Shown: piece by piece, positions 4,449-62,592 of the stretch
Numbering within the stretch: the first letter of the stretch is position 1
How the letters are laid out: the number at the start of each line of letters is the position of its first letter
Origin: Verrucomicrobiales bacterium
GTDB taxonomy: Bacteria > Verrucomicrobiota > Verrucomicrobiia > Verrucomicrobiales > DEV007
Reading direction: 5' to 3'
Assembly (NCBI GenBank): GCA_029212615.1
Contig: JARGPJ010000005.1
Span: 124,001-188,000 of the forward strand
Length of the DNA: 64,000 bases
Notes under the pieces: model-generated
The model's database searches: none
What the model was told of the DNA's origin: nothing
Seen by the model: only the letters and a program-made list of their open reading frames with translations
Made by a program: the position numbers and the translations under genes

Positions 4449-5525
4449 ATGAAGCGACTCATCCTCCTCACTCTCTCAAGCCTTGCGCTGATTGGTTCCT
4501 CTTTCGGCCAGGGGTCCCGCCCCACCGATATCGGGGCCTCGACTCAGCCCATCGGCGATGCCGGAATCATGTGGTATACCACCTGGGACACGGCCCTGGA
4601 GGAAGCAAAGCGCTCGAACCGCCCCATCTTCTTCATGTCGGCTGCGGCGACCTGTTCCGGGATATCGGGTGTCTTCTGACCGGGTTACACCCACACGCAG
4701 AACAGTTTGTTCTCGACTAAAGAATTTATCGAAGCCTCCCGGGAATTTGTTTGTGTCCGCCTTGAGACCTTTGAAAACAAAGAACATCAAGCCCTCGTCC
4801 GGAGAATTCTGAACGGAAGGTTTGAAAACACCGCCTTCTGTCTACTGGCCCCTGATGGCGAAACGCCGCTCACCCGGTCGAGTCGCAGCCCGCAGAATAT
4901 CCTCGGCGCGCACGGAAGGGGCCCCTCGGCTGAACCCGGATCGAATGAAGAGGTCATCGCGGCAATGAAAGAAATCGCGGACGATTACTCCCCCAGGGGG
5001 AAAGTTGACGAAATGGTCCTGCAGGACTTTCACTCCTTTCGTCAGGCTCTGAACGTGGCCTCGGGTGACCAACGGCTCCTTCTCTTTGTCGCCGCCTCAC
5101 CCGGTGATGTTGAGCGATGCCGGGACACGCTTCGACCTGTCTTCGCACACGATGAAATCATCGGCCGTTTTCATCTCGATTTCGGATCCGCGGCGACCGA
5201 TGCCTCCTGGGCGGAAAACGTTTCCGATACCTGGGCCAAATCCGGCTACTTCATCATCCAGGCGGACGCCTTCGGGCAGAAAGGGAAGGCAATTTCCCAA
5301 CTCCCCCTCACCGCCGGCAAATCGGACATCGCTAAAGCACTCCTCGACGCGAACCGGCTTTTCGCGGAAACCGAGGAACGAAAAGTCTATTCCTCCCATG
5401 TCGCTGAAGGGCGCAGTGAGAATATCTTTTTCGAGAATGAAATCCCCTATGGAGAGGATCACGATGGTGATGGCGAAGTCGATACCCGCCGAAGCGGTAA
5501 GGGTAAGGGCAAAGGAAAAGGGTGA
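4449..5525 (+). CDS. Secreted thioredoxin-like protein with in-frame TGA; candidate selenoprotein (otherwise a nonsense-interrupted gene)
   Basis: ORFs 4449-4679 and 4707-5525 are in the same frame, separated by one TGA at 4677-4679: ...RPIFFMSAAATCSGISGVF[TGA]PGYTHTQNSLFSTKEFIEASREFVCVRLETFENKEHQ.... Signal peptide MKRLILLTLSSLALIGSSFGQ; hairpin downstream of the TGA. Confidence 0.6.
4696..4715 (+). promoter_or_regulatory. Candidate bacterial SECIS hairpin
   Basis: CG-(C)-AGAACA-GTT-TGTTCT-CG: 6-bp perfect upper stem, GTT loop starting with G, loop begins about 25 nt after the TGA. Confidence 0.5.
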
Positions 5526-5588: not shown

Positions 5589-6305
5589 ATGAAACTCACC
5601 TCCCTCCTCCTCTCCACCTGCTTTCTCTCACTTTCCTCCGTCTACGCGGAGGAAGAATCCCTCGCTGCAGTCATCGAAGCTAAAAAATCAGCAGGACGTG
5701 CCAACGCCGATCCTGAAAAGCTCAAAGCCTACGCCGAAGGAATCCAGGCGGTGAAAGACGCTGAAACCGTCAAAGCAGCAATTCAAGAGGGGGAAATTGC
5801 ACCTGACTTCACTCTGCCCAACGCCTCCGGCACTGAAATAACCCTCTCGGAGAAGCTCAAGGAAGGCCCCGTCGTTCTCGTCTGGTATCGCGGCGGATGG
5901 TGCCCCTACTGCAACCTTCAGCTTGCGGCCTATCAGAAGATCCTTCCTCAAATCGAAGAGCTCGGCGCTCAGATGATCGCGATCTCACCGGAAGTTCCTG
6001 ACAAGTCACTCACGACCACTGAGAAAAACGGCCTGCGCTTTGAAGTCCTTTCCGACGCCAATCTCGTCGTTTCGAAAGAATACGGTCTGGTCTTTGAGCT
6101 CACCCCTGAAGTGGAAAAATACTACAGCGAATTTTTCGACATGAAGGAATTCAACGGCGCTGACGCGGCCACAAATGAGCTTCCTCTCGCCGCGACTTAT
6201 GTCATCAAACCTGACGGCACTGTCACCTGGGCCTTCCTCGATGCCGATTATACCAAGCGCGCCGAGCCCCGCGACATCCTCGCCGCGCTCGACGGCCTGG
6301 AGTAA
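5589..6305 (+). CDS. Secreted peroxiredoxin-like (AhpC/TSA family) protein
   Basis: Signal peptide; APDFTLPNASGTEITLSEKLKEGPVVLVWYRGGWCPYCNLQLAAYQ. Confidence 0.9.
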   Translation: MKLTSLLLSTCFLSLSSVYAEEESLAAVIEAKKSAGRANADPEKLKAYAEGIQAVKDAETVKAAIQEGEIAPDFTLPNASGTEITLSEKLKEGPVVLVWYRGGWCPYCNLQLAAYQKILPQIEELGAQMIAISPEVPDKSLTTTEKNGLRFEVLSDANLVVSKEYGLVFELTPEVEKYYSEFFDMKEFNGADAATNELPLAATYVIKPDGTVTWAFLDADYTKRAEPRDILAALDGLE

Positions 6306-60609: not shown

Positions 60610-62592
60610 ATGGGATCCCTGAAAAAATTCCCCGCCAACGACCGCCCTGCCTCGGTCGTGATATCCAATTTGTCTCCTATCGTTGAAGGAGGACGCTATC
60701 CGGCGAAACGGGTCGAAGACGAATTACTTGAGATCGAAGCCGACATCTTCAAAGACGGCCACGATGTTGTCATCGCGATCGCCGCCTGGAAAGAAGCAAA
60801 AGGGGACAGTTGGACTGAATTCCCTCTTAGTTCCCGCGAAAATGACCGCTGGGGCGCCGCCCTCGCATTTTCCGAAATGGGCACCTACGAAATCAAAGTG
60901 ACCGCCTGGGCTGATGACTTCCTGACCTGGCTTCACGACTACGAACGGCGACTCACCGGTGATCAGAAAGATTTCTCCACCGAGATCGAGGAAGGTCGCG
61001 TCATCCTGAACAACGCTGCGATCCGCGCCGCGAGAGGAAAATCCCATGATGATGCCGAAGCGATCGAAGACCTTACGACCGCGCTCATGAAAGCGGAGTC
61101 AACCGCCGTTCCGGGGTTGATGAAACACCCTGAGGTCCTGGCCCTGCTCGCCCGCTGGCCCGATCGCACCCTCGCCACGACTTCGGAGGAGAGCATCCAC
61201 CTCGTCGTCGAATCAAAACAATCCTCCTTCTCAGCCTGGTATGAGTTTTTCCCCCGCTGCGCCGAAGGCATTGAAGGGAAGCACTCCGCTTTTCGGGACT
61301 GCCTGCCCCGCATCGAAGACGCAAAGGCAATGGGATTTGATGTCATTTATTTTCCGCCTATCCATCCTATCGGGGTTTCCCATCGCAAAGGGAAAAACAA
61401 CACCGTGACCTGCGAGCCCGGCGATGTAGGCTCCCCCTGGGCGATTGGCAACAAAGACGGCGGTCACCGCTCCGTCGAACCTCAGCTGGGAACCATCGAT
61501 GACTTCGTCTGGCTCCTCGAGGAAGCACGCGACCGGGGCATGGAAATAGCGATCGATTTTGCGATCAATTGCTCCCCTGATCACCCCTACGTGGAGGAGC
61601 ACCCCGAGTGGTTCTATCACCGTCCCGACGGATCCATCAAATACGCGGAGAATCCCCCGAAGAAGTATCAGGATATTTATCCGCTGAATTTTCACTGTGA
61701 CGAATGGCAGGAGCTCTGGCAGGAGCTCTGCGACGTCGTTCTTTTCTGGGTGGAGAAAGGGGTTCGCATCTTCCGGGTCGATAACCCGCACACCAAACCG
61801 GTCGTCTTCTGGGAGTGGCTCATCGCTGAGGTTCACGCGGTGGATCCGACGGTCATCTTCCTCAGCGAAGCCTTCACGCGACCCAAAATGATGCAGACAC
61901 TGGCGAAGGCCGGATTCACCCAGAGCTACACTTACTTCACCTGGCGCGAGTCACGGGAGGAATTAACCGGCTATGTAACCGAACTCACGAAAGGTCACAT
62001 GCGGGAGTATTACCGGGCCAACTTCTGGCCGAACACTCCTGACATCCTCCCTTTTCATCTTCATGACGCTCCCCCTTCTGCGTTTAAAATCCGGGCCGCC
62101 CTCGCTGCAACCCTTTCCTCCTCGTGGGGCATCTACTCCGGTTACGAGCTCTGTGAAAACAAAGGCCTCCACGGCCGCGAAGAGTATCTCGACAGCGAGA
62201 AATATCAGCTCAAAACCCGGGATTGGGATAAACCGGGCAACATCAAACCTTTCATTGCCCGTCTCAACAAAGCCCGCAAAAGCAATGCCGCGCTGCAGAG
62301 CTATGCCAACATTGAGTTCGTCCCCTGCGACAACGATCGCCTCATCGCTTTTTACAAATGGTCCGATGACCGTTCGAATTTAGTCCTCGTGGTGATCAAT
62401 CTCGATCCAGATACGAAGCACGATTCCAACATCCACCTGCCTCTCGCGGCGATGGGAATTGAAGAGGGAAGAGAGTTTCAGGTGAAGGATGTGATCTACG
62501 AAGAGACTTACACATGGCGTGAATCCACCAATTTCGTGTCTCTTGACCCGCGGACGAAGCCAGTCCACCTGTTTTGTGTGGAGAAATCTTAA
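60610..62592 (+). CDS. glgE: Alpha-1,4-glucan:maltose-1-phosphate maltosyltransferase
   Basis: GFDVIYFPPIHPIGVSHRKGKNNTVTCEPGDVGSPWAIGNKDGGHRSVEPQLGTIDDF, GVRIFRVDNPHTKPVVFWEWLI. Confidence 0.95.
   Translation: MGSLKKFPANDRPASVVISNLSPIVEGGRYPAKRVEDELLEIEADIFKDGHDVVIAIAAWKEAKGDSWTEFPLSSRENDRWGAALAFSEMGTYEIKVTAWADDFLTWLHDYERRLTGDQKDFSTEIEEGRVILNNAAIRAARGKSHDDAEAIEDLTTALMKAESTAVPGLMKHPEVLALLARWPDRTLATTSEESIHLVVESKQSSFSAWYEFFPRCAEGIEGKHSAFRDCLPRIEDAKAMGFDVIYFPPIHPIGVSHRKGKNNTVTCEPGDVGSPWAIGNKDGGHRSVEPQLGTIDDFVWLLEEARDRGMEIAIDFAINCSPDHPYVEEHPEWFYHRPDGSIKYAENPPKKYQDIYPLNFHCDEWQELWQELCDVVLFWVEKGVRIFRVDNPHTKPVVFWEWLIAEVHAVDPTVIFLSEAFTRPKMMQTLAKAGFTQSYTYFTWRESREELTGYVTELTKGHMREYYRANFWPNTPDILPFHLHDAPPSAFKIRAALAATLSSSWGIYSGYELCENKGLHGREEYLDSEKYQLKTRDWDKPGNIKPFIARLNKARKSNAALQSYANIEFVPCDNDRLIAFYKWSDDRSNLVLVVINLDPDTKHDSNIHLPLAAMGIEEGREFQVKDVIYEETYTWRESTNFVSLDPRTKPVHLFCVEKS

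Follow-up and report, generated by a model that had tools for sequence, protein, structure and literature searches.

The open reading frame at positions 4449-5525 on the forward strand of the stretch of Verrucomicrobiales DNA analyzed here (64,000 nucleotides in full, hereafter the window) is very probably a genuine selenoprotein gene, the product of which carries selenocysteine (Sec) where an in-frame TGA interrupts the frame; Sec incorporation is inferred, there being no protein or selenium measurement. The protein behaves like a redox protein of thioredoxin fold that uses selenium, but its family stands outside both the VPGUxxT and the Trx7/PDZ selenoprotein families, and is very probably one that has not been described before. 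Recoding follows the usual bacterial mechanism; the novelty lies in the family itself, the layout of its active site and the absence of a cysteine form.

Conservation of the In-Frame TGA

The gene is laid out as the original prediction described it: only the TGA at 4677-4679 interrupts the frame, and the gene encodes 358 residues including Sec77 before a terminal TGA at 5523-5525. A scan of GTDB genome contigs identified 10 Verrucomicrobiales relatives (57-81% identity) that cover the internal codon, all of which carry TGA. Plain sampling across the phylum recovered the family in only 3 of 390 genomes, and dedicated searches at the level of order and class were consequently needed. A profile search of 388 Verrucomicrobiales genomes located the family in 74 genomes spanning 16 genera and three taxonomic families, and the homologous codon, read individually in each, is TGA in 74/74. 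A wider profile applied to 385 genomes of the class contributed seven more genes in six genomes from two further taxonomic families (a divergent family that accounts for five of these genomes, and a second family represented by G952). TGA is present in 7/7, such that all 81 genes checked (74 + 7) agree at this codon and retain the hairpin signal that follows it. None of the three profile searches (phylum, order and class) turned up a member that encodes Cys or a different amino acid at this site, and the TGA-less matches that these returned were fragments not covering the codon and remote Trx_7 proteins with Cys, and nothing else. The question raised by the original prediction, whether homologues carry Cys or UGA at this position, is thus answered by UGA in every case and by no Cys homologue.

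The residues around the TGA conform to the motif [TQ]C-x4-GxFUPGY, which in the divergent clade takes the form GVWUPGK (QCxxVPGVWUPGK). Pro-Gly follows Sec, and the Cys eight residues before it (Cys69, codon 4653-4655) is invariant in 74/74 genomes and in the seven further genes. The spacing is therefore Cys-x7-Sec (C69, U77) and not Cys-x6-Sec, as had been proposed. On both sides of the TGA, non-synonymous substitutions are far fewer than synonymous ones (dN well below dS; for example, 0.05 vs. 0.56 after the TGA in one pair), and from this we infer that the downstream part is translated and useful. Genome G926 (L130) harbors the divergent GVWUPGK form twice in tandem, with a separate TGA and hairpin in either copy, and in G240 (L031) an extra TAG lies in the matched frame of the family member in addition to the conserved TGA.

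A Covarying SECIS Hairpin

The hairpin CG(C)AGAACA-GTT-TGTTCTCG occupies exactly the position at which it was predicted, 4696-4715 (+ strand), and is the minimum-energy structure in RNA folding, at -10.3 kcal/mol. A core stem (4700-4703 with 4709-4712), extended by the pair 4699/4713, encloses the loop AGUUU at 4704-4708, the G of which (4705) falls 26 nt past the TGA, close to the roughly 25 nt originally given. The published bSECIS model (PMC13188914) allows 3-9 nt in the loop and 4-16 bp in the stem, and it requires that one of the first two loop nucleotides be G, that the element lie 16-37 nt from the UGA and that the minimum free energy (MFE) be no higher than -7.5 kcal/mol. The window hairpin satisfies all of these constraints, the energy limit included, and its stem covaries across the family, which bears out the SECIS-like nature that had been attributed to it. 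Taken as a single sequence, the fold is unremarkable (z = -1.2, with 26/200 shuffles as good), and because single-sequence folding is weak in this regard, covariation was used as evidence instead.

When 71 distinct sequences are compared, 97.5% of the cells for the four core pairs are paired, and each of the four shows two-sided changes; none of 500 shuffles reaches the observed values (0/500), and slid controls pair in at most 49%. Adding the divergent clade yields 24 double-change cells, compared with 2.2 expected by shuffling. These shuffle controls leave shared ancestry in; the stem changes are spread over several separate clades. Compensated stems include AGAAC-AGTTT-GTTCT, GTAC-CGTGA-GTAC and GGACAGG-AGTTT-CCTGTCC. 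In every family sequence, without gaps, the hairpin starts 17 nt and the loop 25 nt past the TGA (24 nt between), and the loop comprises 5 nt of the form NGUNN (AGUUU, CGUGA, GGUCU, and others), with one NGGNN exception, CGGGA. The core stem is present in 54/71 family MFE folds, and only 40/71 of the hairpin regions (45-nt stretch) have an MFE at or below -7.5 kcal/mol.

The coding sequence itself bears the imprint of the hairpin. Third positions of codons +7 to +11 have an entropy of 0.10-0.28 bits, against mostly 0.8-2.0 in neighboring codons, and this freeze coincides exactly with the hairpin, even as the residues encoded there vary. Serine at codon +9, for instance, is written AGT in 53/53 cases, compared with 13% AGT elsewhere in the family genes. 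A covariance model of the hairpin recovers the window site as the only strong match in the genome. Its next match, a would-be second SECIS in the window at 60923-60969 (12 bits), was dismissed as chance, as it sits inside an open 660-aa ORF with its TGA out of frame. No SECIS family in Rfam matches the hairpin. Our annotation of 4696-4715 as a bacterial SECIS element thus rests on fold, covariation, frozen third codon positions and the covariance model.

Selenocysteine Machinery and Rival Readings of the TGA

The machinery whose presence in the genome the original prediction singled out as a check is all there. The source genome encodes a tRNA-Sec with anticodon UCA (61.5 bits, above the Rfam cut-off), selB (297 bits) and selD (370 bits), the last with an in-frame TGA of its own within a CGGU motif; selA was recognized from its ORF, not by profile, in the same gene cluster beside selD and selB. 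Between selB and selA (L033:7261-15313, G000:C18, outside the window) lie four phosphonate-type ABC transporter genes, named by sequence as PhnE, PhnE, PhnC and PhnD-like, and the transporter could serve as an importer of selenium compounds. Adjoining tRNA-Sec (L021:9230-13449, G000:C18, likewise outside the window) are genes for an IscS-like desulfurase and a SelU/YbbB-like protein (2-selenouridine synthase), which suggests two uses of selenium in the organism.

The family and selB also occur together. Across the 388 genomes, 63 possess both the family and an over-cut-off selB, 11 the family only, 45 selB only and 269 neither (Fisher p = 1.5e-31); the genomes are related, and the p-value is accordingly indicative only. 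Partial selB is carried by three of the 11 family-positive genomes that lack an over-cut-off selB, and tRNA-Sec exceeds its cut-off in 6/8 of those without even a partial selB. The remaining two of these eight, assemblies whose completeness is 54 and 86%, show neither selB nor tRNA-Sec over the cut-off.

A single stop within one ORF is usually caused by a nonsense mutation or a sequencing error, which would make the locus a pseudogene or two separate genes. A nonsense mutation was indeed the main alternative in the original prediction, and two homologues do contain a further TAG or TAA. We nevertheless give this explanation practically no credence, given that the identical TGA recurs in 74/74 genomes and seven more genes and that the codons following it are under purifying selection; the comparative data rule it out. 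Readthrough of the UGA without Sec machinery, whether as plain stop readthrough or through a suppressor inserting Trp or Cys, retains only slightly more room and is very improbable. It draws on the fact that Sec incorporation into the family protein is inferred without measurement, and on the two genomes with neither marker over the cut-off, but it would leave unexplained a covarying bSECIS-type hairpin at constant distance from the UGA and the strong co-occurrence with selB, and no homologue has Trp at the Sec site. A global reassignment of UGA is likewise ruled out, because the window gene itself ends in TGA. That the UGA is read as Sec, as originally proposed, is strongly supported by conservation, hairpin and machinery, with incorporation remaining an inference.

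Protein Fold and Active Site

The protein begins with a putative secretion signal peptide (residues ~1-21, MKRLILLTLSSLALIGSSFGQ, 4449-4511), assigned from sequence. Its positively charged start and hydrophobic run are conserved among homologues, and AlphaFold places a helix at residues 2-20; the typical character of this sequence accords with the earlier description of the protein as secreted. The AlphaFold model (46 aligned sequences; pLDDT 90.6, pTM 0.87) contains tandem thioredoxin-like domains after this signal-peptide-like start. The first of these (residues ~42-135, 4572-4853) holds the active site and is supported by the model, by a profile-profile match and by weak matches to the Thioredoxin_7 profile. 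In it, a strand (60-65) leads into a loop with Cys69, and Sec77 stands at the start of a helix (78-85). The profile-profile match, with a Prob of 95.9 and an E of 5e-9, pairs residues 33-146 with a Trx_7-type family and sets Sec77 on the active Cys of that family. In alignment with a Trx_7-type protein bearing WCPPC, Sec77 takes the place of the first Cys and Tyr80 (codon 4686-4688; Lys in the divergent clade) that of the second; Cys69, a candidate resolving thiol, belongs to an insertion of seven residues that immediately precedes the active-site helix. The second CxxC position is occupied by Tyr or Lys in all members (UPGY/UPGK). By fold, the protein thus meets the criterion for the thioredoxin-like superfamily, with a chalcogen in the catalytic position at the start of helix 1, but it does not meet that for a dithiol thioredoxin (CxxC, UxxC or CxxU), owing to the Tyr/Lys at the second position.

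A second thioredoxin-like domain, which lacks cysteines, follows at residues ~197-308 (5037-5372) and is recognized from the secondary structure of the model and from Foldseek alignments that extend over two Trx domains. The best Foldseek matches are thioredoxin-like, with PDB matches including PDI, ERp44, QSOX1, calsequestrin and AGR2; a sequence search of the PDB with the family protein gave nothing significant. The original call of a thioredoxin-like protein is therefore sustained by the AlphaFold and Foldseek results together with the weak Thioredoxin_7 matches. Near the C-terminus, the motif DHDGDGEVD (5457-5483), within the conserved columns G335-D345, resembles an EF-hand calcium loop, and calcium binding is inferred; the DxDGDGxxD pattern is kept in the main clade and absent from the divergent clade.

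Directly downstream, at 5589-6305, is a gene for a secreted peroxiredoxin-like protein (AhpC/TSA, WCPYC). A homologue of it follows the family gene in three loci only, and the flanking arrangement of uvrA and the peroxiredoxin-like gene recurs in few relatives. Comparison of gene neighborhoods across the family revealed no conserved partner and no pointer to a substrate.

Relation to Known Families

The family was put forward as undescribed, and we could not find it in the resources consulted. Neither Pfam nor NCBIfam (release 20.0, June 2026) has a model that reaches its cut-off for the family, none of the 119 prokaryotic selenoprotein families in a 2026 inventory has the present motif, and the open-licence literature in PubMed Central yielded nothing on the family by UPGY motif or by phylum. 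The reviews searched within that same literature make no mention of selenium use in Verrucomicrobiota.

The best NCBIfam matches are to VPGUxxT (OS_HP5; NF041382/NF041383) and Trx7/PDZ (NF041199), all far below cut-off, and it must be asked whether the present proteins are simply diverged members of one or the other. The VPGUxxT family shares with them a secreted-type N-terminus, a Thioredoxin_7-like domain and Sec at the first Cys of CxxC, and the profile-profile match noted above is to members in the phylum found with NF041382, with Sec77 falling on their VPGC cysteine. Similarity to VPGUxxT-type proteins is nonetheless limited to residues 33-146, leaving the C-terminal half unmatched, and the active sites differ (VPGUxxT or VPGCxxC there, C-x7-UPGY here). 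The present protein scores 14.9 bits with NF041382 against a cut-off of 350 and does not meet the VPGUxxT motif. VPGUxxT proteins in the phylum are mostly Cys forms, whereas the present family has none. The two types also coexist: genome G243 encodes a VPGUxxT-type selenoprotein (VPGUGPC, with an in-frame TGA; L115:1-2384) alongside a member of the present family. The VPGC Cys form of the VPGUxxT-type protein was seen in eight other genomes of the phylum. Trx7/PDZ, for its part, has a Trx7-type domain with a Sec form in common with the family, but its selenoprotein motif is CxxU (Table 1, PMC13188914) and its catalog entry includes a PDZ domain, as opposed to C-x7-U and a second domain that is thioredoxin-like; the NF041199 score is 12.2 bits against a cut-off of 300. 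Membership in either family is accordingly very improbable, if not quite to the degree of the readings of the TGA rejected above.

More distant kinship is evident with Thioredoxin_7 (PF13899) and DUF255/Thioredox_DsbH (PF03190), both of which score the family under the gathering cut-off. These share the active-site strand-loop-helix, and the WCPPC of Trx_7-type proteins aligns to FUPGY; relative to them, the present family has lost the second Cys, carries the 7-residue insertion with Cys69 and has Sec where they have Cys. PDI-type tandem proteins (ERp44, the QSOX1 oxidoreductase fragment and PDI b'-a') align over two consecutive thioredoxin-like domains (Foldseek, E 4.6e-5 and weaker), but with ~10% identity, pair TM-scores of 0.2-0.4 and another domain orientation. 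They are without Sec, and no equivalence of active and inactive domains has been established.

Proposed Function and Significance

We propose that the ribosome reads the UGA at 4677-4679 as Sec by means of tRNA-Sec and of SelB acting on the SECIS hairpin, and that the product would then be exported and fold as two successive thioredoxin-like domains. Sec77 would most likely attack a disulfide, a peroxide or another oxidized substrate in the periplasm, and Cys69 may resolve it as a selenenylsulfide; both steps are inferred. By analogy with the b domains of PDI-type proteins, the cysteine-free second domain probably binds a substrate or partner. This redox mechanism could, in its details, as easily prove wrong as right, the enzymatic reaction being inferred and not shown.

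With marginally greater conviction, we favor the view that these proteins constitute a selenium-obligate family of Verrucomicrobiota, defined by a periplasmic tandem of thioredoxin-like domains with Sec at the first CxxC position and Cys in an insertion eight residues upstream, and catalyzing a reaction that needs selenium. Such a need would account for the lack of any lineage in which Sec has been replaced by Cys. A family without a Cys form is hard to detect and would tend toward annotation as two fragments or as a pseudogene. Its recognition adds to the bacterial selenoproteome a family covered by no library searched, extends the use of selenium in Verrucomicrobiota and offers a test case for which reactions truly need selenium.
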